64,000 bases of DNA, from contig OX639973.1 in the NCBI GenBank assembly GCA_951828385.1, positions 3,091,200 to 3,155,199 of the forward strand, in the 5' to 3' direction. Positions 48,927-64,000 of the stretch are shown here, piece by piece (position 1 is the stretch's first letter; every line of letters begins with the position of its first letter). Made by a program: the position numbers and the translations under genes. The DNA is from an uncultured Poribacteria bacterium (GTDB lineage: Bacteria > Poribacteria > WGA-4E > WGA-3G). The notes under the pieces are model-generated. The model did no database searches and was not told the DNA's origin. It saw only the letters and a list, made by a program, of their open reading frames with translations.

Positions 48927-48962
48927 TGCATTTTATGCAACCTTTTAGGTTCACGGACGCGT
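48927..48962 (+). promoter_or_regulatory. ECF-type promoter upstream of the LamG cluster
   Basis: Palindrome TGCATTTTATGCA at 48927-48939, continuing to ACC; after TGCAACC, 16 bp, then GCGT at 48959-48962. Same architecture as the promoters of the four sigma-propeller genes. It lies about 300 bp before the first LamG gene; no ORF occupies that gap. Confidence 0.72.
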
Positions 48963-49127
48963 TTTTAATATTATAATATTATAAAGATGGAAGTTATACT
49001 GAGTAAAACATGCGGATGTGGCGAAATAGGGGAAGAAGGGAGATAATTTGTGTCCTTTTCTTTCCGCCTTAGATCCCTATTTACTTTACATTCTTAGCCC
49101 TTACTCGCTATGAGTTCATGCTATATC

Positions 49128-49264: not shown

Positions 49265-50182
49265 GTGAAAACACTCATGAATGTGCTGATACTCCCTGTG
49301 GTTATCGTTGGGTTGTGTGGCATTACAGACGCAGAGAATATCATAACCGATGGACTTGTGAGCTACTGGACCTTTGATCGTGAGGACATTATTGATAACA
49401 CTGTCAAAGATGTTTGGGGCGAAAACAATGCAACAATTGTAGGAACCCCAACGATTATCAACGGACACCTGAAAGATGCACTCAAATTTGATGGTATCAA
49501 GGATTATGTGAACCTAACGACTCTCGGCGATTTTGGTGCTAAACTTGATTTTTTTACCGTTGAAGTGTGGATTAAAACAGATTACAAAGAAACATGGACA
49601 ACAATCTTCAAAACTATAGGCACTTGCCAGAATCAGGCAACTATGATTTGGGGAATAGATATTAACAGAAAAACAGCTGATCTTGAGGATATTCAGAACG
49701 ATCCTTTTGGTCCTCAGATTATTTTTGCAGAGGATTTCATTCAACTTTACTTAGCATCTTTTTTCAAGAATAAAGGTGGATGTTCACTTTCCTTTCTTAG
49801 AGGTGAATTTCCGATTTCAGATGGCGAATGGCATCACCTCGTCTATACTAATAAGACTGTAGATGAAAACGGTACAGACTGGAGGGAACGCGCGCTTTTT
49901 ATAGATGGAACACTGAATCGGATTTTAAAGTTTCATCCATTATTGATAGCTCCGAACACTCGGTACAAATATGCGCCATTCTCTGAACCTGTGTATCTCG
50001 GCGCAGGAAATAATCAAGGTAGAGCCGAAGGCTTTTTCAACGGACTTATCGATGAAGTCCGCATTTACGATCGACCCCTAACTGAAGCAGAAATCATGCA
50101 CAATTATCAATCTACTACGGGCCTCACCGTTGACCGGACAGATAAGTTACCAACGGTTTGGGGTGCCCTGAAGAAAAAATAG
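49265..50182 (+). CDS. Secreted LamG-domain protein 1 of 3
   Basis: A 305-residue protein with a signal peptide (ending GITDAEN) and a LamG/concanavalin-like domain over the rest. Landmarks are LVSYWTFDRED, KDVWGENNATIVGTP, EALKFDGIKDYVNL-type segments, FTVEVWIKTDYKETWT, ISDGEWHHLVYTNKT and FFNGLIDEVRIYDRPLTEAE. LamG domains bind glycans or proteins at the cell surface. The start is GTG, whereas the sister genes use ATG at the same place; GGAGG precedes all. It differs from the two copies downstream by roughly one residue in ten. Confidence 0.9.
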   Translation: MKTLMNVLILPVVIVGLCGITDAENIITDGLVSYWTFDREDIIDNTVKDVWGENNATIVGTPTIINGHLKDALKFDGIKDYVNLTTLGDFGAKLDFFTVEVWIKTDYKETWTTIFKTIGTCQNQATMIWGIDINRKTADLEDIQNDPFGPQIIFAEDFIQLYLASFFKNKGGCSLSFLRGEFPISDGEWHHLVYTNKTVDENGTDWRERALFIDGTLNRILKFHPLLIAPNTRYKYAPFSEPVYLGAGNNQGRAEGFFNGLIDEVRIYDRPLTEAEIMHNYQSTTGLTVDRTDKLPTVWGALKKK

Positions 50183-50349
50183 GTATCCATCCGATTCTAT
50201 GGCTGCAGATCACACCGCTTCTGAATTTTACATACAAGGTAGATAGACATTGATTGCGGCGCGACGTGTTCAAGAGGGTTCCATCCAGCCCTGCAATAAC
50301 ATGAGTTGGTTAGAACTCTCCTTACTATATTTGCTGGAGGTAAATCATT

Positions 50350-51231
50350 ATGAAAACACTCATGAATGTGCTGATGCTCCTTGTGGTTATCGTTGGGTTG
50401 TGTGGTATTGCAGACGCGGAGAATATCGTAACCGATGGACTTGTGAGCTACTGGACCTTTGATCGTGAGGACATTATTGATAACACTGTCAAAGATGTTT
50501 GGGGCGAAAACAACGCAACAATTGTAGGAACCCCAAAAATTGTCAACGGACACCTCAAAGAGGCACTTAAATTTGATGGTATCAAGGATTATGTGAACCT
50601 AACGACTCTCGGCGATTTTGGTGCTAAACTCGATTTTTCTACCGTTGAAATGTGGATTCAAACGGATTACAAAGAAACATGGACAACAATTTTCAAAACT
50701 ATAGGCACTTGCAATAATCGGGCAACTATGTTTTGGGGAATAGATATTAACAGAAGGATGGTTGATGCCGAGGAGCGTAAGAACGATCCTTTTGGTCCTC
50801 AGATCATTTTTGCAGAGGATTTCATTCAACTTTACTTAGCATCTTTTTTCAAGAATAAAGATGGGTGTTCACTCGTCTTTCTTCGGGGCGAATTTCCGAT
50901 TTCAGATGGCGAATGGCATCACCTCGTCTATACTAATAAGACTGTAGACGAAAAAGGTGCAGAATCGAGGGAACGCGCGCTTTTTATAGATGGGACACTG
51001 AATCGGATTTCAAAGTTTAATCCAACAGTTCCGGACGCTCAGTACAAATATGCGCCATTCTCTGAACCTGTGTATCTTGGCGCAGGAAATAATCGTGGTA
51101 GAGCCGAAGGCTTTTTCAACGGACTTATTGATGAAGTCCGCATTTACGATCGAACCCTAACTGAAGCAGAAATCATGCGCAATTATCAATCTACCACGGG
51201 GCTCGCTTTGGGTTCGCGGACGCGTTTTTAA
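50350..51231 (+). CDS. Secreted LamG-domain protein 2 of 3
   Basis: A 293-residue sister of the LamG proteins at 49265 and 51304. Signal peptide, then the same LamG core (VEMWIQTDYKETWTTIFKTI, RGEFPISDGEWHHLVYTNKT). The C-terminus differs: instead of TVDRTDKLPTVWGALKKK it ends LALGSRTRF, because the reading frame runs into a copy of the -10 half of the ECF promoter. It lacks the shared sigma70 promoter. A 100-bp leader (50248-50349) is nearly identical to that of gene 1. It looks like a copy with a recombined 3' end. Confidence 0.88.
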   Translation: MKTLMNVLMLLVVIVGLCGIADAENIVTDGLVSYWTFDREDIIDNTVKDVWGENNATIVGTPKIVNGHLKEALKFDGIKDYVNLTTLGDFGAKLDFSTVEMWIQTDYKETWTTIFKTIGTCNNRATMFWGIDINRRMVDAEERKNDPFGPQIIFAEDFIQLYLASFFKNKDGCSLVFLRGEFPISDGEWHHLVYTNKTVDEKGAESRERALFIDGTLNRISKFNPTVPDAQYKYAPFSEPVYLGAGNNRGRAEGFFNGLIDEVRIYDRTLTEAEIMRNYQSTTGLALGSRTRF

Positions 51232-51235
51232 TATT
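51209..51235 (+). promoter_or_regulatory. Promoter fragment: -10 half without palindrome
   Basis: GGTTCGCGGACGCGTTTTTA matches the -10 side of the ECF promoter before LamG gene 1 (48949-48968), but the -35 palindrome is missing. It marks a recombination joint. Confidence 0.6.
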
Positions 51236-51251
51236 ATGAAGGTGCTATATC

Positions 51252-51280
51252 TTGACCCCTGTTTGAAAATTGGGTATACT
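51252..51280 (+). promoter_or_regulatory. Sigma70-type promoter of LamG gene 3
   Basis: TTGACC at 51252-51257, a 17-bp spacer and TATACT at 51275-51280, 24 bp before the start codon. Confidence 0.72.
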
Positions 51281-51303
51281 TTATTTGCTGGAGGTAAATC
51301 ATC

Positions 51304-52215
51304 ATGAAAACACTCATGAATGTGCTGATGCTCTCTGTGGTTATCGTTGGGTTGTGTGGCATTACAGACGCAGAGAATATCGTAACCGATGGACTTGTGA
51401 GTTACTGGACCTTTGATCGTGAGGACATCATTGGGAACACTGTCAAAGATGTTTGGGGCGAAAACAACGCAACAATTGTAGGAACCCCAACGATCATCAA
51501 CGGACACCTCAAAGAGGCACTTAAATTTGATGGTATCAAGGATTATGTGAACCTAACGACTCTCGGCGATTTTGGTGCCAAACTCGATTTTTCTACCGTT
51601 GAAGTGTGGATTCAAACGGATTACAAAGAAACGTGGACAACAATCTTCAAAACTATAGACACTTGCCAGAATCGGGCAACTATGATTTGGGGAATAGATA
51701 TTAACAGAAAGACAGCTGATCTTGAAGATATTCAGAACGATCCTTTTGGTCCTCGGATTATTTTTGCAGAGGATTTCATTCAACTTTACTTAGCATCTTT
51801 TTTCAAGAATAAAGGTGGGTGTTCACTTTCCTTTCTTAGAGGTGAATTTCCGATTTCAGATGGCGAATGGCATCACCTCGTCTATACTAATAAGACTGTA
51901 GATGAAAACGGTACAGAATGGAAGGAACGCGCGCTTTTTATAGATGGAACACTGAATCGGATTTCAGAGTTCATTCCAATAGGTCCGAAAGCTCAGTACA
52001 AATATGTGCCATTCTCTGAACCTGTGTATCTTGGCGCAGGAAATAACCGTGGTAAAGCAGAAGGCTTTTTCAACGGGATTATTGATGAAGTCCGCATTTA
52101 CGATCGAACCCTAACTGAAGCAGAAATCATGCACAATTATCAATCTACTACGGGCCTCACCGTTGACCGGACAGATAAGTTACCAACGGTTTGGGGTGCC
52201 TTAAAGAAAAAATAG
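51304..52215 (+). CDS. Secreted LamG-domain protein 3 of 3
   Basis: A 303-residue protein, closest to copy 1. Signal peptide (ending TDAEN), LamG core (VEVWIQTDYKETWTTIFKTI, DGEWHHLVYTNKTVDENGTE) and the full tail VDRTDKLPTVWGALKKK. The DNA just after the stop (GTATCCATCCGATTCTATGG) is the same as after copy 1, so the duplicated unit includes the 3' flank. It is the last LamG gene before the sigma-propeller series and shares its direction. Confidence 0.9.
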   Translation: MKTLMNVLMLSVVIVGLCGITDAENIVTDGLVSYWTFDREDIIGNTVKDVWGENNATIVGTPTIINGHLKEALKFDGIKDYVNLTTLGDFGAKLDFSTVEVWIQTDYKETWTTIFKTIDTCQNRATMIWGIDINRKTADLEDIQNDPFGPRIIFAEDFIQLYLASFFKNKGGCSLSFLRGEFPISDGEWHHLVYTNKTVDENGTEWKERALFIDGTLNRISEFIPIGPKAQYKYVPFSEPVYLGAGNNRGKAEGFFNGIIDEVRIYDRTLTEAEIMHNYQSTTGLTVDRTDKLPTVWGALKKK

Positions 52216-52270: not shown

Positions 52271-52306
52271 TGCATTTTATGCAACCTTTTGGTCACGCAG
52301 ACGCGT
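52271..52306 (+). promoter_or_regulatory. ECF-type promoter of sigma-propeller gene 1
   Basis: Palindrome TGCATTTTATGCA at 52271-52283, then ACC, 16 bp, GCGT at 52303-52306. The -35 side is TGCAACC, as at the LamG promoter. Gene start 38 bp later, with GGGGGA as ribosome site. Confidence 0.78.
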
Positions 52307-52343
52307 TTATAAGTTACAAAAGTGTTATTTTTGGGGGAGATAT

Positions 52344-55328
52344 ATGAAAACCAGTGATTTCGCGCTGATCCAGCGCACTTTAGACGGTGATCAGAACGCC
52401 TTCACGACGCTCGTGACCAAATACCAGAAATGGGTCCACACGCTTGTCTGGCGGAAGACCGGTGATTTTCACATCGCTGAGGAGATCACACAAGATGTTT
52501 TCCTGAAAGTTTACAAAAAGTTATCAACGTTGAAACCCTCGGATCATTTTACGGGGTGGCTCTATGTGATTGCAACGCGACGCTGTATCGCATGGTTCCG
52601 AAAGAAACGGATCCCGATGACTTCACTCGACGCAACGCCAGTATCAGAGTTAGAGGAGCTCTGCTATACACAATATGAGACGGAACGCAGTGAACAAATC
52701 TCTCTTGAACGCCAACGCGACATTGTCAAGCGTCTCCTCGAAAAATTGCCAGAGAGCGAGCGCACCGTCGTAACGCTGCACTATCTGGCAGAAATGTCTT
52801 GCGAAAAGATTAGCGAATTCTTGGGTGTATCCCCGAACACAGTTAAGAGTCGGCTCCATCGGGCTCGGAAGCGATTGGCGAACCAGGAGCATCTCCTCCG
52901 CGATGCCTCAAGTGTTTTCCAAGTGCCACCAACGCTAACCGAGAACATCATGCGCGAAATCGCCAATCTTAAACCGACATCGCCTTCCGCGAGCAAACCG
53001 TGGCTACCGTGGGGACTCTCTTTCGTATCAACGGTTTTGGTTATCCTGATGATCGGATTCGGCACGCTTGCATTGTCCCGCTTTCAGCAACCCTATAACT
53101 TAGATGCCACATCGGAGATGACAATAGAACTCGTTGACACACCGGTTGTCCTTGAATTGGCACGTAAATCCGACGCGCTGACCCAATTCGGGAATACCGA
53201 TACACCGGGTAAAAACCGTGGATCTGGATTCCAAGCGGAACCTCTGCTCATCGCAGCTGCGCAAGCAGACGAAATCGACCTTTCAACAACAGAACCGCAG
53301 TGGATTCAAGCAAAGGGACCGAGCGGCGTTTCAAGTGCCGGGCTCTTTCTAACATCCGATCAAACCCTTTATGCCATTACCAAAACAGACCTCTATCGAC
53401 TCACAGAAGAAAGGGACGCGTGGATGTTTGTCAGTGCCAGCGGTCCGAATCGGGAATTTGATCCGATCATGGCAGAGCGCGACGACACCCTCTATCTCCT
53501 CACACCCAATGAACTCTTGGTCTCCGTTGATAACGGTAAGACGTGGAATAGCCTCGGCGCACGCCCCGAAGGCAATGCAGTTGCGTTGGTTATCACGGAT
53601 ACGGCGATGTACCTCATCCACAAAACAGAGGTATTTCGGTCCGAGGATGTCGGTAAGCAGTGGGAGCCTATCGGAGAGCACTTGCGAGCCTTAGCCTCGC
53701 AAGTCTTAGCCGATAACAAACTCGAAGAGGTCCGTCCCAATGTTCCTGCTCTTGGGGACTTCCACGCCATTCAGAACATGGTTTTCCGTATATGGGATGC
53801 GCTCGCTATTGACAACACCCTATTTATAGGTACAAGTCAGGGACTTTTCCGACTGACCGATGACTGGGAAAAATTGCCGGTGCCGACATTAGACGGTATC
53901 AAATCGTTGGCAGCCATCGAAGATAGACTCTACGTCGGAACAATCCTCCCGCACGGGCTGCCATCACCGGAGCTCGGGCCCGAACCGTCGGCATCTACAA
54001 CAGTTTTCGCTTCAACCGACCTCGGCGATTCCTGGACCGATATCACGCCGATTAGCCGCGGACATTTTATACGCACTGCTGAGGTCGTTACAGTCGGAGA
54101 CACACTGATATTGACGGGCTACGGTTTACGCTCTCAAGATGGTGGTGAAACATGGATGACGCTTGGCGGAGACCTAAACACGATTAGCGTGTCTCCTGCT
54201 ATCGCGTTAGACGAAAACAATCTTTACACCAGTAGCATCGGAATAAGACGTTCCACTGATGGCGGTGTCACGTGGCACCCCTTTATGACCGGAATCGTGA
54301 ATTCCCGTGTTCCGAATCTGGTTGTATTTAAAAATGTTCTCTACGCACTAACACCTACGAAAATGCTCAAATCCGCAGATGGTGGCGAGTCATGGGAATC
54401 CGACGGCTTAATAAATGCTAATACAAAAGCTCGGCATCCTTCTCGACCTTTTTTTCGTGAAAGTTTTAATGCCTTGGCAACGAAATTTGCCACAGCCGAC
54501 GGTGTTCTTTATATCAGCAATAGTGAACATGATGGTGTCACGCTCTATCGCCTCGCTGATGCTGGCAATGTGTTTCTACCGGTTGAAGATGCCCCAGATT
54601 TTGAAGAAGATACCTTATACACGGAATTGGAGAAAAAGCGGAATGCGGCAATAAGAAGCCGTTACCGGGCCGATATTGACAGAGTGATGAATCAGTGGAA
54701 TGCCCAACAAAAGCGAATCCAAGAAGAACAGGAGACAAATGGAACGTTTACGGTTACTAACGACACCGTCTTCATGGAATACAGACATAAACTTTACAGA
54801 TGGCAGTTCGACGAAACGGGGTGGCACGACACAGGTTTGGAAGATCACGCAGAAATCTCACCGATCGGCAGAAAAGGGCTCGCCCTCGCCGCTTCTGGAA
54901 ACACCGTCTATGCCGGGAAACGGGAAGGTGATCTTTTCCTATCCCAAGACAACGGGGACACTTGGCGCGATGTCACCAAGAAACTCGCCTTTCAGTATGG
55001 ATATTTCAAGGAGATACTGTTTGCAGGATCAACCGTCTACGTCTCAACGGATATGGGTGTCACGAGTTCACATGATGGTGAGACATGGCACGGACTTACC
55101 GATATTGATGCCAACAGGCTTATCATGGATCGGATCGCAGTTGATGGTATGAAGGTTTACGGTGTCTGTGATAGTGGTATCTATGAGGTAGATAGCCAAA
55201 CAAGCACATGGGAACAGATTATCCCAGAACTACCCCATACAGCAATCTCCTTTGCCATTGATGGCAATACGTTTTACATCGGCACAAAGCAAAACGGTGT
55301 GCTCCGTTTTCAACGTGACGGTCAATAA
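52344..55328 (+). CDS. Membrane-tethered ECF sigma factor with extracytoplasmic Asp-box propeller, copy 1
   Basis: The ATG at 52344 has GGGGGA 6 bp upstream; 51 in-frame codons before it come from intergenic DNA. The 994-residue protein has sigma2 (about 8-80: RTLDGDQNAFTTLV, AEEITQDVFLKVYKKL), sigma4 (about 130-180: LPESERTVVTLHYLAEM, LGVSPNTVKSRLHRARKRL), a short conserved linker (NIMREIANL), one membrane helix (about 222-244: LPWGLSFVSTVLVILMIGFG), and from about 330 a chain of Asp-box repeats (SxDxGxTW type: VSVDNGKTW, ASTDLGDSW, RSTDGGVTW, LSQDNGDTW). Fused sigma and sensor in one chain suggests that release or bending of the sigma part depends on what the propeller binds. Signal unknown. 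Confidence 0.9.
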   Translation: MKTSDFALIQRTLDGDQNAFTTLVTKYQKWVHTLVWRKTGDFHIAEEITQDVFLKVYKKLSTLKPSDHFTGWLYVIATRRCIAWFRKKRIPMTSLDATPVSELEELCYTQYETERSEQISLERQRDIVKRLLEKLPESERTVVTLHYLAEMSCEKISEFLGVSPNTVKSRLHRARKRLANQEHLLRDASSVFQVPPTLTENIMREIANLKPTSPSASKPWLPWGLSFVSTVLVILMIGFGTLALSRFQQPYNLDATSEMTIELVDTPVVLELARKSDALTQFGNTDTPGKNRGSGFQAEPLLIAAAQADEIDLSTTEPQWIQAKGPSGVSSAGLFLTSDQTLYAITKTDLYRLTEERDAWMFVSASGPNREFDPIMAERDDTLYLLTPNELLVSVDNGKTWNSLGARPEGNAVALVITDTAMYLIHKTEVFRSEDVGKQWEPIGEHLRALASQVLADNKLEEVRPNVPALGDFHAIQNMVFRIWDALAIDNTLFIGTSQGLFRLTDDWEKLPVPTLDGIKSLAAIEDRLYVGTILPHGLPSPELGPEPSASTTVFASTDLGDSWTDITPISRGHFIRTAEVVTVGDTLILTGYGLRSQDGGETWMTLGGDLNTISVSPAIALDENNLYTSSIGIRRSTDGGVTWHPFMTGIVNSRVPNLVVFKNVLYALTPTKMLKSADGGESWESDGLINANTKARHPSRPFFRESFNALATKFATADGVLYISNSEHDGVTLYRLADAGNVFLPVEDAPDFEEDTLYTELEKKRNAAIRSRYRADIDRVMNQWNAQQKRIQEEQETNGTFTVTNDTVFMEYRHKLYRWQFDETGWHDTGLEDHAEISPIGRKGLALAASGNTVYAGKREGDLFLSQDNGDTWRDVTKKLAFQYGYFKEILFAGSTVYVSTDMGVTSSHDGETWHGLTDIDANRLIMDRIAVDGMKVYGVCDSGIYEVDSQTSTWEQIIPELPHTAISFAIDGNTFYIGTKQNGVLRFQRDGQ

Positions 55329-55375
55329 ATATTCTCTCTGTCTTCCATTTATATTTCCTTGATTTTCCTTTTGCT

Positions 55376-55396
55376 GGCGAGGTTTATAACCTCGCC
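55376..55396 (+). terminator. Hairpin downstream of sigma-propeller gene 1, probable terminator
   Basis: Perfect 9-bp stem GGCGAGGTT-TAT-AACCTCGCC at 55376-55396, followed only by TTTG, so a weak T-tract. It may act as terminator or be one of the palindromic intergenic elements. Confidence 0.6.
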
Positions 55397-55431
55397 TTTG
55401 CATCATTAAAACACACAATCTTCCGAAAAAT

Positions 55432-55466
55432 TGCATTTTATGCACCATTTTGATTTCTATATGCGT
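55432..55466 (+). promoter_or_regulatory. ECF-type promoter of sigma-propeller gene 2
   Basis: Palindrome TGCATTTTATGCA at 55432-55444, CC, 16 bp, GCGT at 55463-55466. Conservation with gene 3 also covers the upstream TCTTCCGAAAA. Confidence 0.8.
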
Positions 55467-55509
55467 CACTATATCATGAAGCCACTATTCTTTCTCAGGA
55501 GATATGATA

Positions 55510-58464
55510 ATGAAAACAAATGATGTAGAACTCATTCAACGTATTTTAGATGGGGATCAAGGCGCATTTACCGTGCTCGTCAATAAATATCAGAAATCCG
55601 TCCACGCCCTGGTCTGGCGAAAGATAGGTGATTTCCATATCGCCGAAGAACTCACACAGGATGTCTTTCTGAAGGTTTACAAAAGGCTATCGACGTTGAA
55701 ACGTCCTGAACTTTTTCCGGGATGGCTCTACGTCATTGCCACGCGGCACTGTGTGTCATGGCTACGCAAAAAGGAACTACCGACAAAATCTCTGGATGCC
55801 ATGTCCACAGTCGAACTCGAAGAAGCCTGCTACGCGCAATATGAAACGAACCGTGGTGAGGCAGCAGCCATTGAACACCAGCGCGAATTCGTCAAACGCC
55901 TCCTCCAAAAGCTGCCGGAGAGTGAACGCACTGTTGTAACGCTCTATTATCTCGCAGAAATGAAGAGTGAGGAGATTAGTATGTTTTTGGGTGTATCGTC
56001 AAACACAGTCAGGAGTCGGCTCCGCCGCGCCCGTGAGCGATTAGAAAAAGAAGAATTTATAGTTCAAGAAGTGCTGGGCAACTTCCAGATACCTACGAAT
56101 CTAACAGAGAATATCATGCGCGAAATTGCACGCATCAAACCGGTATCTACTTCTGTGAGTAAGCCGTGGCTACCGTGGGGACTCTCACTCGCGTCAACCT
56201 TTTTGGTTATCCTGATGGTCGGGATGGGACCTCAGGCATTGTCGCGTTTTCAACAACCCTACAACTTGGACGCGACATCGGAGATGACAGTTGAGTTGGT
56301 TGACGCACCCGTTGTGTTTGAATTGAAACGAGAACCGGATATAAAAAATCAGTTCGGAAAGCGTAATACACCGGGGAAAGGCAGTGGTGCAGGTCCGAGA
56401 ACCGATGCCGGACTGTTGGCAGCAGCACAGGCAGATACCGTAGAGAGACGACAGAGCAAACCGCAGTGGATTCAGAAAAAGGGACCCGTAGGTGGGAACA
56501 TCAGAAGCTTTTTCGTATCATCTCAAAAGGAGGTCTATGCGATTGGAGACGTTGGACTCTACCGATTAACAGGTGATGACAAGAGCGAATGGACCCTTAT
56601 TAACGACTCACTTTCGCCTATTTATGCTGCTAAATCAATGGCAGAACGACGGGATACCCTATATCTTGCCGATAAAACGCATGTGTTAAAGTCGACGGAT
56701 CGCGGCGTGACATGGGAGCCGCTCGGTGAACGGCCACAAGGATATACCGTCGCGCTGCTCATCACAGATCCAATGCAAATGCACCATCCACAGGATGCCC
56801 AGTATGAAATGTACCTTATCCTTTCAAATGGTGTATTTCGTTCGACAGATACTGGCAACACATGGCAAGCGTTTAACAACGGTTTGACGGCACCTAAAAT
56901 ACACGATGCTGCCGCTATTGAAAATGCACTTTTTTTGGGAACGCGCAACGGACTCTATCGGCTTAATTCTGGTGTCTGGGAGAAATTGCCTGTCGCACCC
57001 CAATTTATTGACGCTTTAACAGTCGCTGGCGATAGAATTTACCTCAGGAGCCGAAGGCATTCGCTGTTTACTTCAGATGACTTCGGAGACTCCTGGACTG
57101 ATATAACACCGGCGGAGAGTCAATCATGGGAAACGTCTGTATTATCGCCCAACCTTGTAGCGATAGATGACACCGTTTTAGTTTTCCATGCTGGTCGGTC
57201 ATTACGCTCTACGGATGCTGGCGATACATGGGAGGACCTCGGTTGGAATAACCATACACTTACGTCCAGCAGGTCCCCAGTTGTCGCCTTAAATAAGGAT
57301 ACTTTTCTTATAGCCAACCTAATCAGAATTGGACGCTCCACTCTCGTATCGAAAACAGGCAGTGTCGGACGCTCCACTGATGGAGGCTACACCTGGCATC
57401 CATTTTCAATAGGCATAGCAGAAACCCACGTCCTCCAACTTGCACAAGTTAACGATGTACTCTACGCCATAACTGATGATGGTATCACGAAATCTACTGA
57501 TGGCGGGGAAAGGTGGACGTATATCTTGACCGAGTTATCTCTTCCAAAGCCTCCAAAAAAACCGATCAGTGCACTCGGATTATCAAATATAACAGCGATA
57601 GGAGACTCGCTTTACATGAGAGCGAAACACGGTGGAAGCACAAACTGCCTACTCCGCTTATCTCCAAATATGGATACATTGAGGCATATTGAAGGCATGC
57701 CAGTTTATGTCAACTGGCGCCACGGCGAAAAGTTGGAGAACATAGCAGACACCAGCGTTGCACTTGAACCCAATGAGATAGATCAGACGGAATCGACTCG
57801 CTATCTACTCGGTATCGAAGAAGCCACTACAAGAACAACTGGTGAGTTCGCTATCACTGGTAGCACGTTCTATATTGAATACGAACGCAAACTCTACCGA
57901 TGCTCACACGGCGATCGTAAATGGTACGACACAGGCATGCAAGACACCCCTGTCTCCGACGGCTTTTACGCGACTACGGGTTTCCAAGTCGCTGCCTCGG
58001 GAAAAGTTGTTTACCTTGGCAAAAGTGACGGCAGCCTCTTTCAATCGTTGGATAGTGGTAACACTTGGAAAGACATCACCGCGAATTTTCCGTTGCTACT
58101 TGATAGAACAATATCGCGTACCGAGCTGCTGGAGAAATTACCGCACTTCAAAGAGATCCTATTTGTGGGTAGCACAGTGTATGTGTCAACAAGTGATGGA
58201 GTCGCCATGTCAAACGATGGCGAAAATTGGCGTGTGCTTACCGATGCAGAACAGACACCGATCACAATGCCTCACTTAGCAATTGATGGCACAACCCTCT
58301 ATGGTGTTAACCAAACAAGTGCCTATCAATTACAGAAGAACACGGGAACTTGGATTCAAATTGCACCAGAAATACCTGAACGGGTAACTTCTCTCGTTGC
58401 TGCGGAAAATATTCTCTATGTCGGCACAGAGCACCGTGGAGTCTTGGGGTTACCACTGCAATGA
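55510..58464 (+). CDS. Membrane-tethered ECF sigma factor with Asp-box propeller, copy 2
   Basis: I take the ATG at 55510 because AGGAG is 8 bp from it and too close to the ATG at 55504. The 984-residue protein repeats the layout of copy 1: sigma2 (AEELTQDVFLKVYKRL), sigma4 (FLGVSSNTVRSRLRRARERL), the NIMREIARIKP linker, one membrane helix in LPWGLSLASTFLVILMVGMG, then Asp-box repeats (RSTDTGNTW, RSTDAGDTW, KSTDGGERW, QSLDSGNTW). Up to about residue 310 it is almost identical to copy 4; beyond that it diverges, so the sensor has changed while the sigma part was kept. Confidence 0.9.
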   Translation: MKTNDVELIQRILDGDQGAFTVLVNKYQKSVHALVWRKIGDFHIAEELTQDVFLKVYKRLSTLKRPELFPGWLYVIATRHCVSWLRKKELPTKSLDAMSTVELEEACYAQYETNRGEAAAIEHQREFVKRLLQKLPESERTVVTLYYLAEMKSEEISMFLGVSSNTVRSRLRRARERLEKEEFIVQEVLGNFQIPTNLTENIMREIARIKPVSTSVSKPWLPWGLSLASTFLVILMVGMGPQALSRFQQPYNLDATSEMTVELVDAPVVFELKREPDIKNQFGKRNTPGKGSGAGPRTDAGLLAAAQADTVERRQSKPQWIQKKGPVGGNIRSFFVSSQKEVYAIGDVGLYRLTGDDKSEWTLINDSLSPIYAAKSMAERRDTLYLADKTHVLKSTDRGVTWEPLGERPQGYTVALLITDPMQMHHPQDAQYEMYLILSNGVFRSTDTGNTWQAFNNGLTAPKIHDAAAIENALFLGTRNGLYRLNSGVWEKLPVAPQFIDALTVAGDRIYLRSRRHSLFTSDDFGDSWTDITPAESQSWETSVLSPNLVAIDDTVLVFHAGRSLRSTDAGDTWEDLGWNNHTLTSSRSPVVALNKDTFLIANLIRIGRSTLVSKTGSVGRSTDGGYTWHPFSIGIAETHVLQLAQVNDVLYAITDDGITKSTDGGERWTYILTELSLPKPPKKPISALGLSNITAIGDSLYMRAKHGGSTNCLLRLSPNMDTLRHIEGMPVYVNWRHGEKLENIADTSVALEPNEIDQTESTRYLLGIEEATTRTTGEFAITGSTFYIEYERKLYRCSHGDRKWYDTGMQDTPVSDGFYATTGFQVAASGKVVYLGKSDGSLFQSLDSGNTWKDITANFPLLLDRTISRTELLEKLPHFKEILFVGSTVYVSTSDGVAMSNDGENWRVLTDAEQTPITMPHLAIDGTTLYGVNQTSAYQLQKNTGTWIQIAPEIPERVTSLVAAENILYVGTEHRGVLGLPLQ

Positions 58465-58543
58465 ACTGTAGTGACCAATATTCTTCACTAACCAGATTTT
58501 CGGATGCTCCGTTACCCCATTAAATCCTAAATCTTCCGAAAAT

Positions 58544-58579
58544 TGCATTTTATGCACCACTTCAACCTCCAAAGTGCGT
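58544..58579 (+). promoter_or_regulatory. ECF-type promoter of sigma-propeller gene 3
   Basis: Palindrome TGCATTTTATGCA at 58544-58556, CC, 17 bp (one longer than the others), GCGT at 58576-58579. Confidence 0.76.
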
Positions 58580-58625
58580 TACTATATAATGAAGTCTTAT
58601 TTTTTATTTTTTCGGAGGGAGACAG

Positions 58626-61544
58626 ATGAAAGAGAGTGATGCTGCATTAATTCAACGGACTTTGGATGGAGACGAGGGGGCGTTTACAACGCTCGTCAAG
58701 AAATACCAGAAATGGGTTCATACCCTGGTCTGGCGGAAGATCGGTGATTTTCATACCGCCGAAGAACTCACGCAGGATATTTTCCTCAAGGTTTACAAAA
58801 AGTTATCGACGCTGAAACCGCCAGACCGTTTTCCGGGGTGGCTCTATGTCATCACCACGCGGCACTGTATCACATGGCTCCGAAAGAAGCGCGTATCAAC
58901 GACATCCCTGAATACAATGCCCACAACCGAGCTAGAGGCACTATGTTATGCACGCTATGAGACAGCGCGTGGTGAAGAGGCATCTGCTGAACATCAGCGC
59001 GAACTCGTTAAACGCCTCCTCCAAAAACTACCGGAGAGCGAGCGCACCGTTGTAACGCTGTATTATCTCGCAGAAATGACCAGTGAGGAGATTGGTACAT
59101 TTTTAGGTGTCTCGCCGAACACAATTAGGAGCCGACTCCGCCGTGCTCGTAAGCGATTGAAGGCGCAAGCGCATTTGCTCCACAATGTCTCCAGTGTGTT
59201 CCAATTGCCGCCGACCTTAACCCAGGATGTCATGCGTGAAATCGCTCGTATCAAACCCGCATCGCCTTCCGTAAGCAAGCCTTGGCTACCGTGGGGACTC
59301 TCATTCGCGTCAACGTTCTTGGTTATCCTGATGATAGGGGCGGGCCCGCGTGCGTTGTCCCGTTTTCAGCAGCCCTACAGTTTGGACGCAACATCGGAAA
59401 TGACAATTGAATTAGTCGAGGATCCTGTTCTGCTCGCTTTGGAACTAAAACGGGATTTGAGAAACCAGCATGGGATAACTGGTAACATCGGAAGCAGCAG
59501 CAGTACAGGCACCAAAACCAACGCGAAACTGCTCGCAGCGGCGCAAGCAGATACGACAGCGCAGTTGGAAACAAAACCAAAATGGATACCTGCAAAGGGA
59601 CCGGCAGGCGGAACCGTCAGCAACCTCTTTGTAACATCTCAAAAGGATCTCTACGCTATTAGTGGTACCCGGCTTTATCGATTAGACAACAATAGCACTG
59701 AATGGATGCTTATGAACGCTGGGCTCTCTATATCCCATTGGCCACTAATAGCAGAACGGAACAATCGACTCTATATTGCCACCCAAAAACATCTGTTCGT
59801 CTCAACCGATCGCGGGGCGACGCTGATACTCGTCGGACCCCGGCCAGAGGGACGCGCTGTCGCGTTACTGATTACGGATCCGAGTCAAGTTCGCCGGCCA
59901 CAGGAGGCCCAGTATGGAATGTACCTCGTTCTCACTAAGGGCGTTTTCCGTTCAACGGATGCTGGTAAGACGTGGCACGCATTTAATGAAGGTTTGACCG
60001 CAGCAGAGATACAAGCTGCCGCCGTCATTGACAATGCACTTTTTTTAGGAACGAATCCTCTTTTTTTGGGAACGAACCAGGGACTCTATCGGCTCAATAC
60101 CGGTGTCTGGGAGAAATTGCCCATCGCACCGCCACAAACTATTGAATCGTTAGCAGTTGCTGACAATAAAATCTATTTCAATACCAGGGCGAGAAACGAA
60201 CTGTCCAGTTCGCTTTACGTCTCAAACGATTTCGGAGAGTCCTGGACAGACATAACACCACCGCAGCTGCCTCCGTTTTTTGCCAAACTTGCGGCGATAG
60301 ACGATACGCTCTGGGTAATCGGTGACAGCATCTTAAACTCAACGGATGCTGGCAATACATGGACAGACCTTGGACCCCATGGACGACATGGACAGGCATT
60401 CTCTGTCAACGGCTCCGCTGTCGTTTTGGACAAAGACACCCTTTTTCTCGGCAAGCCAGCGGGCCCGGGCGTTGCACGCTCAGACGACCGGGGCAAGAAT
60501 TGGCGTCCGCTCACAGCGGGCATCGCTGCAACCCGCATCCAAGATCTGGCACAGGTTAACAACGTCCTCTACGCCGTAACCTCTAACGGTATCGCTACAT
60601 CCACTGACGGCGGAACACAGTGGACATATATCCAGCAAGCACTACCATTTTCACCAACCTCCCTAACCGTGTTCGGAGATTCGCTCTATTTCAGAAGAAA
60701 CAAGGGCGACAGTGCAAACGGACTGTTCCACCTACAACCCCATACAGATACGCTGCACCCTGTTGAAGGGATGCCCGTTTACGTAGATGCGAACCCCGCC
60801 CCCCCCGACACAGCGTTGGAGAGAGTGCCAAATGCCGCAGCTGATCGCCCTCCTATCACAATTAAAATTCAAGAAGGAAAGATACGACGAGCCGGTAAAT
60901 TCACCATCAGCGGGGATACCTTCTACATTGAATACGAACGGAAACTCTATCGATGGACCCGCGGTGAACACAAATGGCACGATACTGGCATGCAAGATGC
61001 CCCCGCATTCGGCAACAACTACTTCAACGGTCTCCAATTCGCCGTCTCAGGGAAAGTTATCTACCTCGGAAAAAGCGACGGTAGCCTCTTTCAGTCATTG
61101 GATGGCGGAGACACCTGGCGCGATATTACTGCAACCTTTCCATTTCCACTCGATAGATCAAAATTACCCTTAATCAAATTGTCGGAGGTCCAGGAGATGA
61201 TGAGAAAATTGCCCCATTTCAAGGATATCGTCTACGTGGGGCGCACGGTGTATATCATAACAAACGACGGGAGTGCCATGTCAAACGATGGAGAGAATTG
61301 GCAGCCACTCAGAAATGAAAAATCCGTACCGATCACTCTCTCCGAGTTAGCCGTTAAAGGGACAACCCTCTATGGTGCCTCCAAAACAGGCGCGTATCGC
61401 TTAAACAACGAGACAAACACTTGGATACAGATTGCTCCAGAAGTACCCGGAGGCGTGACATCACTCGTGGTAGCGGACGATGTGCTCTATGTCGGCACAA
61501 ATTACCGTGGCATCCTACGTTTACCCCTACAGGGGCTCGAATAA
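58626..61544 (+). CDS. Membrane-tethered ECF sigma factor with Asp-box propeller, copy 3
   Basis: A 972-residue protein with GGAGGG just upstream of the ATG. It has sigma2 (AEELTQDIFLKVYKKL), sigma4 (LGVSPNTIRSRLRRARKRL), the NxxMREIARIKPASP-type linker (VMREIARIKP), one membrane helix (FASTFLVILMIGAGP) and Asp-box repeats such as RSTDAGKTW, NSTDAGNTW, TSTDGGTQW and QSLDGGDTW. An in-frame 21-bp tandem duplication at about 60039-60080 gives FLGTNP twice with a one-residue change. It ends only 10 bp before the 30-bp hairpin array. Confidence 0.9.
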   Translation: MKESDAALIQRTLDGDEGAFTTLVKKYQKWVHTLVWRKIGDFHTAEELTQDIFLKVYKKLSTLKPPDRFPGWLYVITTRHCITWLRKKRVSTTSLNTMPTTELEALCYARYETARGEEASAEHQRELVKRLLQKLPESERTVVTLYYLAEMTSEEIGTFLGVSPNTIRSRLRRARKRLKAQAHLLHNVSSVFQLPPTLTQDVMREIARIKPASPSVSKPWLPWGLSFASTFLVILMIGAGPRALSRFQQPYSLDATSEMTIELVEDPVLLALELKRDLRNQHGITGNIGSSSSTGTKTNAKLLAAAQADTTAQLETKPKWIPAKGPAGGTVSNLFVTSQKDLYAISGTRLYRLDNNSTEWMLMNAGLSISHWPLIAERNNRLYIATQKHLFVSTDRGATLILVGPRPEGRAVALLITDPSQVRRPQEAQYGMYLVLTKGVFRSTDAGKTWHAFNEGLTAAEIQAAAVIDNALFLGTNPLFLGTNQGLYRLNTGVWEKLPIAPPQTIESLAVADNKIYFNTRARNELSSSLYVSNDFGESWTDITPPQLPPFFAKLAAIDDTLWVIGDSILNSTDAGNTWTDLGPHGRHGQAFSVNGSAVVLDKDTLFLGKPAGPGVARSDDRGKNWRPLTAGIAATRIQDLAQVNNVLYAVTSNGIATSTDGGTQWTYIQQALPFSPTSLTVFGDSLYFRRNKGDSANGLFHLQPHTDTLHPVEGMPVYVDANPAPPDTALERVPNAAADRPPITIKIQEGKIRRAGKFTISGDTFYIEYERKLYRWTRGEHKWHDTGMQDAPAFGNNYFNGLQFAVSGKVIYLGKSDGSLFQSLDGGDTWRDITATFPFPLDRSKLPLIKLSEVQEMMRKLPHFKDIVYVGRTVYIITNDGSAMSNDGENWQPLRNEKSVPITLSELAVKGTTLYGASKTGAYRLNNETNTWIQIAPEVPGGVTSLVVADDVLYVGTNYRGILRLPLQGLE

Positions 61545-61552
61545 ATAGACAT

Positions 61553-61911
61553 CTTTGTAGCATAACCTTTTAGGTTGTGTCCCTTTGTAGCATAACCTTT
61601 TAGGTTGTGTCCCTTTGTAGCATAACCTTTTAGGTTGTGCCTCTTTGTAGCATAACCTTTTAGGTTGTGTCTCTTTGTAGCATAACCTTTTAGGTTGTGC
61701 CTCTTTGTAGCATAACCTTTTAGGTTGTGTCTCTTTGTAGCATAACCTTTTAGGTTGTGCCTCTTTGTAGCATAACCTTTTAGGTTGTGTCTCTTTGTAG
61801 CATAACCTTTTAGGTTGTGTCTCTTTGTAGCATAACCTTTTAGGTTGTGTCTCTTTGTAGCATAACCTTTTAGGTTGTGTCTCTTTGTAGCATAACCTGT
61901 TAGGTTGTGCC
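61553..61911 (+). repeat. 30-bp hairpin tandem array, 12 units
   Basis: Unit TTTGTAGCATAACCTTTTAG continues GTTGTG(T/C)(C/T)C. Each unit holds CATAACCT-TTT-AGGTTGTG, an 8-bp stem allowing one U-G pair. Units differ only at one or two positions near the end; the last has loop GTT. They are contiguous, with no spacer sequence. Confidence 0.95.
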
Positions 61912-61912
61912 A

Positions 61913-62028
61913 GGTAGTTATAAGTTATAAATTAACTTACTTGTGGCAGTCCAGTTCATTGTAACTGCTCCACAAACCCTCTTAACTGACAATGACAACT
62001 CTCACTGCGAGGCAAACTGACAACTAAT
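61913..62028. repeat. Foldback intergenic repeat (CAGTTATCAGTT family), copy H, degraded
   Basis: TATAAGTTATAA words on the left and CTTAACTGACAATGACAACT, CTGACAACTAATT on the right. No strong stem-loop in the middle; the copy is less regular than A, C or G. Confidence 0.6.
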
Positions 62029-62030
62029 TA

Positions 62031-62065
62031 TGCATTTTATGCACCATTTTGATTTCTATATGCGT
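62031..62065 (+). promoter_or_regulatory. ECF-type promoter of sigma-propeller gene 4
   Basis: Palindrome TGCATTTTATGCA at 62031-62043, CC, 16 bp, GCGT at 62062-62065. Nearly identical to the gene 2 promoter. Confidence 0.8.
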
Positions 62066-62105
62066 CACTATATCATGAAGCCCCTATTCTTTCTCAGGAG
62101 ATATG

Positions 62106-64000
62106 ATGAAAACAAACGACGTTGACCTCATTCGACGTGTTTTAGATGGCGATCAAGGCGCATTTACCGCACTCGTCAATAAATATCAGAAATCGGTGCA
62201 CGCCCTCGTCTGGCGAAAGATAGGCGATTTCCATATCGCCGAAGAACTCACACAGGATGTCTTTCTGAAGGTCTACAAAAGACTCTCCACGTTGAAACGT
62301 CCTGAACTTTTTCCGGGATGGCTCTACGTCATTGCCACGCGGCACTGTGTGTCATGGCTGCGCAAAAAGGAACTACCGACAAAATCTCTGGATGCCATGT
62401 CCACAGTCGAACTCGAAGAAGCCTGCTACGCACAATATGAAGCGAACTGTGGTGAAGAAGCAGCCATTGAACATCAGCGCGAATTCGTCAAACGCCTCCT
62501 CCAAAAGCTGCCGGAGAGCGAACGCACTGTTGTAACCCTGTATTATCTCGCAGAAATGAAGAGTGAAGAGATTAGCATGTTTTTGGGGGTATCGTCAAAC
62601 ACAGTAAGGAGTCGGCTCCGCCGCGCCCGTGAGCGATTAGAAAAGGAAGAATTTATAGTTCAAGAAGTGCTGGGTAACTTCCAGATACCTACGAATCTAA
62701 CCGAGAATATCATGCGCGAAATTGCACGCATCAAACCGGTATCTACTTCCGTGAGTAAGCCGTGGCTACCGTGGGGACTCTCACTCGCGTCAACCTTTTT
62801 GGTTATCCTGATGGTCGGGATGGGACCTCAGGCGTTGTCGCGTTTTCAACAACCCTACAACTTGGACGCAACCTCGGAGATGACAGTTGAGTTGGTTGAT
62901 GCACCCGTTGTGTTTGAATTGAAACGAGAACTGGATGTCAGAAATCAGTTTGGAAAGCGTAATACGCCAGGGAAAGGCAGCGGTGCGGGTCCGAGAACCG
63001 ATGCCGGACTGTTGGCAGCAGCACAGGCAGATACCGTAGAGAGACAGGAGACAGAACCGCAATGGATGCCAACAAGGGGACCGGAAGGCGGCGGTGTCAA
63101 GAACCTGTTTGCCACATCTCAGAAAGAGGTCTACGCGATTGGAGGCACTCGACTCTACCAGTTAGCAGATGACAATACTGGATGGACACTCATTAACGCC
63201 GCACTCCCCTTTACACCTTATAGCACGCCGATGGCAGAAGGGAAAGATACCCTCTATATTGTTACTGAGACTGACCTGCTCGCATCAACGGATCGTGGCC
63301 TAACGTTGCATTTCCTCGGTCCACGGCCACGCGGGCGCGCCATCGCCCTGCTTATCCCCAGCAGATTACGCTGGTCGAAGGATGCACAGATCGAAATGTA
63401 CCTCGTCCTCGCAGACGGTGTGTTTCGTTCAACAGATACTGGCGGCACCTGGCACGCCTTTAACGATGGTTTGACCGCACCAAAGATACATACTGCTGCT
63501 GCCGTTGAAAACGCACTCTTTTTGGGGACAAAGCACGGACTCTATCGACGCAATTCAGGGGTATGGGAGAAATTACCCGTCGCACAGTCACAATCTATTG
63601 ACGCATTAGCAGTCGCTGGCGACACAATTTACATCAGTGCTCCAAGGCAGAAAGATCAGGAATCCGCTGTGCTCTTTGCCTCAAGCGACTTCGGAGCGTC
63701 TTGGATTGACATAACCCCCACGAATCTAAAAACAGGAATGTCACCACTCAAAATCGGGTCTGTCAAGCTTATCGCGGCAGGTGAAATGCTCTTAGTGCTC
63801 GGTGCGGGTGTGTTAGGTTCACGAGATGCTGGCGATACATGGGAATACCTCGGTTTTCACAGAGACGCGCTTGCAGTCGGCATTTTCTCAGCAGTCGCTT
63901 TAGATGAGAATACTTTTTTTATCGCAGGAGCGGATAAACTCGGACGTTCAACCGATGGCGGTCATAGTTGGCATCAGTTCACAGCAGGTATAGCGGAATC
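62106..64000 (+). CDS. Membrane-tethered ECF sigma factor with Asp-box propeller, copy 4, 3' truncated by window edge
   Basis: Start at 62106 (AGGAG 6-7 bp upstream; an ATG at 62103 is also possible). The frame is open to the end of the window, giving 631 residues. The sigma2/sigma4 part (AEELTQDVFLKVYKRL, LGVSSNTVRSRLRRARERL), the linker NIMREIARIKP and the membrane helix are virtually those of copy 2. After GDTVERQ-type sequence near base 63040 the proteins separate: this one continues with MPTRGPEGGGVKNLFATSQK, then Asp-box repeats ASTDRGLTL, RSTDTGGTW and ASSDFGASW. Confidence 0.92.
   Translation, partial: MKTNDVDLIRRVLDGDQGAFTALVNKYQKSVHALVWRKIGDFHIAEELTQDVFLKVYKRLSTLKRPELFPGWLYVIATRHCVSWLRKKELPTKSLDAMSTVELEEACYAQYEANCGEEAAIEHQREFVKRLLQKLPESERTVVTLYYLAEMKSEEISMFLGVSSNTVRSRLRRARERLEKEEFIVQEVLGNFQIPTNLTENIMREIARIKPVSTSVSKPWLPWGLSLASTFLVILMVGMGPQALSRFQQPYNLDATSEMTVELVDAPVVFELKRELDVRNQFGKRNTPGKGSGAGPRTDAGLLAAAQADTVERQETEPQWMPTRGPEGGGVKNLFATSQKEVYAIGGTRLYQLADDNTGWTLINAALPFTPYSTPMAEGKDTLYIVTETDLLASTDRGLTLHFLGPRPRGRAIALLIPSRLRWSKDAQIEMYLVLADGVFRSTDTGGTWHAFNDGLTAPKIHTAAAVENALFLGTKHGLYRRNSGVWEKLPVAQSQSIDALAVAGDTIYISAPRQKDQESAVLFASSDFGASWIDITPTNLKTGMSPLKIGSVKLIAAGEMLLVLGAGVLGSRDAGDTWEYLGFHRDALAVGIFSAVALDENTFFIAGADKLGRSTDGGHSWHQFTAGIAE

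Follow-up and report, generated by a model that had tools for sequence, protein, structure and literature searches.

A multigene family of predicted membrane-tethered ECF sigma factors with exchangeable C-terminal domains in Poribacteria

The window analysed here, a stretch of 64,000 nucleotides (G000:C1:3091200-3155199) in the 6.66 Mb single-contig genome of an uncultured Poribacteria bacterium, contains four tandem plus-strand genes, each encoding an ECF sigma factor followed by a linker, a predicted membrane helix, and an Asp-box double propeller. Gene 1 (52344..55328) encodes 994 aa when counted from the conserved ATG, the mechanical open reading frame beginning with a TTG at 52191, and is followed by gene 2 (55504..58464; 986 aa), gene 3 (58626..61544; 972 aa), and gene 4 (62103..64000), which runs past the window end and is an intact 986-aa frame when read in the genome beyond that edge. 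A fifth copy lies after gene 4, just past the window, at genome position 3156364-3159279. The initial annotation, made from the letters alone, had described four adjacent complete ECF sigma factors with one hydrophobic helix and an Asp-box C-terminal part, and all of this was borne out by profile searches and hydropathy. Sigma70_r2 (E 1e-11 to 8e-15) and Sigma70_r4_2 (E 8e-15 to 2e-17) match all four proteins, the C-terminal parts match the BNR, Sortilin-Vps10, and PSII_BNR models (Pfam), and TIGR02937 scores above its cut-off in every one. Domain matches and fold agree on an ECF sigma factor composed of sigma2 and sigma4 with no sigma3, and the fold matches of the sigma part are SigW, AlgU, and SigE. 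The membrane helix is predicted by hydropathy and an insertion-energy score at 53016..53072, 56170..56226, 59286..59342, and 62766..62822 on the plus strand in genes 1 to 4, respectively.

Between the sigma factor and the C-terminal domain lies a conserved cassette, of which the linker motif NIMREIA, correctly recognized in the initial annotation, is only one piece. The family alignment gives a linker of ∼40 residues (consensus LTENIMREIA...KPxxPW), then the helix, and then a conserved juxtamembrane segment (RFQxPYSFxAxSExTVEIIDAP), and this arrangement is kept across unrelated C-terminal domains. Among the 71 family members long enough to test, a strong hydrophobic helix follows the sigma factor in 57 and is absent in 14; the insertion-energy score, an uncalibrated home-made approximation, is at most 0.4 in the cassette of the former and at least 4.0 in the latter, with a clear gap between. 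K/R is 3.2 ahead of the helix vs. 1.7 behind it, which fits an N-in orientation. Searched against Pfam, the cassette matched no anti-sigma or FecR model and no family at all save one sub-threshold DUF3094, and no zinc-finger match was found in the linker; a fused full anti-sigma domain is thus ruled out, since ∼40 residues leave too little space for one. In its position immediately ahead of the membrane helix, the linker helix corresponds to helix 4 of class I anti-sigma domains, which binds sigma2 (PMC7406223); the linker helix may restrain the sigma factor. Coupling between linker and sigma was assessed by mutual information on an alignment with Neff ∼65 and clade effects. In the AlphaFold2 model, neither the linker nor the membrane helix is placed with confidence.

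The same structure prediction, which had been proposed as a check on the layout, is firm for the ectodomain, the gene 2 model being a confident double propeller with pLDDT mostly of 85–95. In a fold search with the full gene 2 model, the top 21 matches are all GH74 xyloglucanases (E 2e-22 to 8e-19), and the alignment extends over more than 800 columns and both seven-bladed propellers of GH74, a call that rests on fold alignment with a TM-score of ∼0.57 on the target and an identity of only 13–16%. The GH74 xyloglucanases are therefore the closest fold of the window ectodomain, with the extracellular sensor propellers of Bacteroides regulators as lower-ranked matches. An enzymatic reading of the ectodomain was set aside: the fold is that of GH74, yet a sequence search of the ectodomain against the PDB found no GH74. 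By eye, the first-blade position of the catalytic aspartates varies between paralogs. The genome also encodes two stand-alone Asp-box relatives that start with signal-peptide-like N-termini, and an extracellular role is therefore probable for this type of propeller.

The window series, which the initial annotation had treated on its own, is one patch of a family with interchangeable sensors, of which a genome-wide search with open reading frame analysis found 74 genes in this genome. The cassette was found in 68 of the 85 Poribacteria genomes searched, single-contig ones included, so the frames are not products of chimeric assembly, a possibility raised at the outset and ruled out by this recurrence. 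Within the taxonomic family, all 59 genomes carry the cassette in 1 to at least 53 copies, the sister families of the order carry it in 9 of 14 genomes with 1–3 copies, and among the same 85 genomes it was not found in the other Poribacteria classes searched. When 84,980 species genomes were scanned, the best 80 matches were all from Poribacteria, and by these sequence searches the family is Poribacteria-specific. Poribacteria live mainly in marine sponges. The C-terminal types behind the cassette include Asp-box, WD40, Kelch, LRR, Reg_prop, PD40, M16-like, and CarboxypepD_reg domains; Asp-box propellers form a cluster of 27, including two copies without the membrane helix, WD40 propellers make up most of a cluster of 18, and LRR members come with or without a glycosidase-like part. 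Some C-terminal parts have no Pfam match, including a type of ∼850 residues present in three copies (G000:C1:1557254, 1562628, and 1566607; locus L040). This ectodomain is built of a repeated beta-rich unit and by eye resembles LolA/RseB-like domains; the single copy that was scanned against Pfam gave no match.

Sensor and sigma modules have distinct histories within the family. On the sigma-domain tree, the C-terminal type, taken as four main classes, changes at least nine times and the presence of the helix at least eight times (raw counts). Between genes 2 and 4, the synonymous divergence (dS) is 0.23 in the sigma part and 1.09 in the ectodomain, while for the pair at 1526095 and 1532551 the values are 2.7 and 0.49, respectively, and this discordance shows that the modules recombine independently. 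In every module with unsaturated dS, dN/dS is below 1 (∼0.1–0.2 in the sigma part), and the parts are therefore maintained by selection. Both sigma2 and sigma4 carry residues that are invariant in the family alignment.

Not every member has a membrane helix. Two minus-strand genes at locus L041 (G000:C1:1676799-1679618 and 1684360-1687167) are Asp-box sigma fusions in which the helix and the juxtamembrane segment have been lost together and the linker helix kept. At least 26 of the 38 genus genomes conserve this TM-less sigma-propeller junction, and the membrane is therefore not required for every member. Other TM-less fusions (G000:C1:5432297, 5437858, 5483349, 5491338, 5663216, and 4027607) join sigma factors of the clade to TPR with AhpC/redoxin, methyltransferase, S9 peptidase with PD40, and M61 peptidase domains. 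In a further gene of ∼580 aa on the minus strand (locus L068, G000:C1:5525783-5527528), an ECF sigma factor of the same clade is fused in frame with a complete three-domain DnaN clamp, and a second, shorter copy lies at 5385257-5386642. The sigma-DnaN junction occurs in 32 of the 85 Poribacteria genomes, and with dN/dS of 0.04–0.15 in the sigma factor and 0.21–0.32 in the clamp, both halves are under purifying selection; three stand-alone dnaN genes are also present in the genome. In layout, the fusion is a covalent analogue of the late transcription of phage T4, in which a sigma-like factor is activated by a sliding clamp (PMC7892883; PMC2988020).

Each gene of the window series also has its own predicted promoter of a common type, a feature that the initial annotation had missed. 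The upstream regions carry a repeated two-part motif of ECF type (TGCAmC...GCGTC), and the pattern TGCAMCNNTTN{11,15}GCGTC has 27 sites genome-wide vs. 1 for the reversed control, about half of the 27 preceding family genes. With the threshold set at 1% of shuffled controls, a matrix trained on 13 sites, all away from the family, recognized the upstream regions of 55 of the 74 family members, all four window genes among them, and in the remaining 19 no promoter was detected above this threshold. Applied to the 64 kb window, the matrix found six sites, compared with 0–1 in shuffled windows. Four belong to the sigma genes, one of these scoring at two spacings; another lies at a LamG cluster, and a weaker one is on the minus strand. 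On the plus strand, the gene 1 site (TGCAACC...GCGTT) lies at 52280..52307 and the gene 3 site at 58553..58580, both detected by the matrix, and the sites of gene 2 (TGCACC...GCGTC; 55441..55467) and gene 4 (62040..62066) were detected by pattern and matrix alike. Promoter subtypes include GCATTTTATGCA and AAATTATGCA.

Directly upstream of the sigma array (49265-52215) are three tandem genes for secreted LamG paralogs, all on the plus strand and assigned to Laminin_G_3 by Pfam, at 49265..50182 (signal-peptide-like N-terminus; a candidate target), 50350..51231, and 51304..52215. The matrix site ∼300 bp upstream of this cluster (48936..48963, plus strand) is of the gene 1 subtype, GCATTTTATGCAACCTTTT...GACGCG, which recurs upstream of family genes in relatives, and five of the loci examined in relatives contain LamG genes. 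Judged by eye, ABC transporters, a STAS-domain protein, and another ECF gene also have such sites upstream, and the regulon could accordingly extend further or be shared. At G000:C1:1496778-1496805 (locus L202), the same promoter-like site lies upstream of a non-family ECF gene. The promoter may be read by, or form a link to, other ECF sigma factors.

The initial annotation knew of no described system with this exact layout, but in principle the layout is known, as single-chain membrane sigma factors (IutY, and by prediction ECF48, ECF52, and ECF53) and the WD40-ECF expansions of Gemmataceae have already been reported. IutY of Pseudomonas putida (ECF243), which is released by Prc and RseP, likewise is a single polypeptide in which an ECF sigma factor is followed by a membrane-bound regulatory part (PMC8999054). 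The Poribacteria proteins share with ECF243 the C-terminal transmembrane extension, but Pfam detects no fused anti-sigma or FecR-type domain in their cassette, and where the chain of IutY includes a fused anti-sigma, they have only the linker. IutY moreover serves iron-starvation cell-surface signalling, whereas the Poribacteria family has propellers and other sensors and dozens of paralogs per genome. The actinobacterial groups ECF48, ECF52, and ECF53, predicted to be activated by proteolysis (PMC8999054), similarly have C-terminal membrane helices, and SCO4117 also has an extracytoplasmic binding domain; these groups differ in that their one or two helices come with an anti-sigma domain of the zinc-finger type. 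The ECF57 and WD40-ECF proteins of Gemmataceae (Planctomycetes) resemble the family in their lineage-specific expansion and beta-propeller extensions (PMC8999054; PMC8567305), in contrast to the conserved single-helix cassette with many unrelated domain types found in Poribacteria. Two conserved cysteines are thought to link sigma2 and sigma4 in ECF57 (PMC8999054); in the family alignment (A1), C83 is invariant, and sigma4 shows no second invariant cysteine. In the Bacteroides hybrid two-component systems BT4663 and BT4673, too, a membrane protein that bears a large propeller ectodomain has a transcriptional output, but this output is a phosphorelay with a DNA-binding regulator rather than a sigma factor. 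A search of the literature on Poribacteria and sigma factors outside subscription journals found no paper on this family, and its scale, modularity, and shared promoter appear to be undescribed.

The reading that we favor, to which we assign a probability of roughly 0.55, is that these proteins are type II membrane sigma factors that sense a signal with their outer domain and, once released, probably through RseP-like proteolysis, activate their own gene and its neighbors. Each gene would encode a one-chain membrane receptor with an ECF sigma factor as its cytoplasmic output: the N-terminal sigma2-sigma4 pair would lie in the cytoplasm, possibly restrained by the linker helix (LTENIMREIA), the single helix would span the inner membrane N-in, and the juxtamembrane segment with a variable stalk would hold the exchangeable sensor outside, in the window genes the GH74-fold double propeller. 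Once the sensor recognized its signal, the protein would be cut within or close to the juxtamembrane region; intramembrane cleavage would follow, most likely by the RseP-like M50 protease, and the freed sigma factor would transcribe its own gene and neighbors such as those for secreted LamG proteins from TGCAmC-N(16-18)-CGTC promoters. The topology in vivo, the ligand, the cleavage, and the release are all steps that we infer, as is the use of the TGCAmC/CGTC promoter by the family sigma factors themselves. A tethered and proteolytically released sigma factor is favored because the order of parts matches that of known single-chain membrane ECFs, because the release of IutY depends on Prc and RseP and an RseP-like M50 protease is encoded in the genome, and because zf-HC2 domains, the type of separate anti-sigma searched for, occur only near other ECF genes. 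None adjoins any of the 74 family genes, as an anti-sigma gene would for a canonical ECF, which agrees with the original view that sensor, tether, and sigma factor are one polypeptide.

The sigma factor might instead stay tethered and be controlled by conformation, the sensor moving the juxtamembrane segment and linker so that the sigma factor opens and recruits RNA polymerase in the membrane. The TM-less Asp-box fusions keep this unlikely reading alive, since they show that no membrane helix is needed to join the propeller to a sigma factor, and their retained linker helix suggests an action on the sigma factor itself; control by C-terminal extensions is also known for ECF41- and ECF42-type factors (PMC8999054). 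On the other hand, IutY, the only experimentally characterized single-chain membrane ECF in that review, needs both Prc and RseP (PMC8999054).

Somewhat more doubtful is a reading in which the propellers are cytoplasmic interaction platforms, as proposed for ECF57 with its WD40 domains, with the hydrophobic stretch acting as no more than a loose membrane anchor or not being inserted. The bimodal hydrophobic segment, the asymmetric charges, the secreted Asp-box relatives, and the joint loss of helix and juxtamembrane segment in TM-less propeller copies all argue against such platforms, whereas the conservation of TM-less forms of the Asp-box propeller proteins, the redoxin, methyltransferase, or clamp domains of other TM-less members, and the fractionation with detergent of ECF sigma factors from a planctomycete rich in WD40-ECFs (PMC8567305) are in their favor. 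It is very improbable that the sigma part is an inactive relic serving as the membrane-entry module of amplified surface proteins; the extreme copy number and the 19 members lacking a promoter above threshold would suit such a relic, but the low dN/dS of the sigma part, the invariant residues of sigma2 and sigma4, and the ECF-type promoter preceding most members do not.

More broadly, and as a tentative proposal that we hold at somewhat below even odds, sigma factors, dozens in each cell and nearly alike in promoter recognition, would be the releasable outputs of receptors whose sensors are swapped by recombination, a system found only in Poribacteria in which many external inputs would converge on one promoter family, with soluble offshoots placed under cytoplasmic modules including a sliding clamp. 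In this proposed convergence of external inputs through a tethered factor, the family would resemble the membrane-tethered transcription factors of eukaryotes. Some of the many "GH74" and WD40 genes described from Poribacteria may then be regulator sensors, and such genes would be neither enzymes nor secreted proteins. The family also offers ready natural chimeras for experiments on the silencing and release of a tethered sigma factor. If the favored reading is true, these uncultured sponge symbionts would possess a large, modular, and lineage-specific system of transmembrane signalling in which the transcription factor is itself the receptor.
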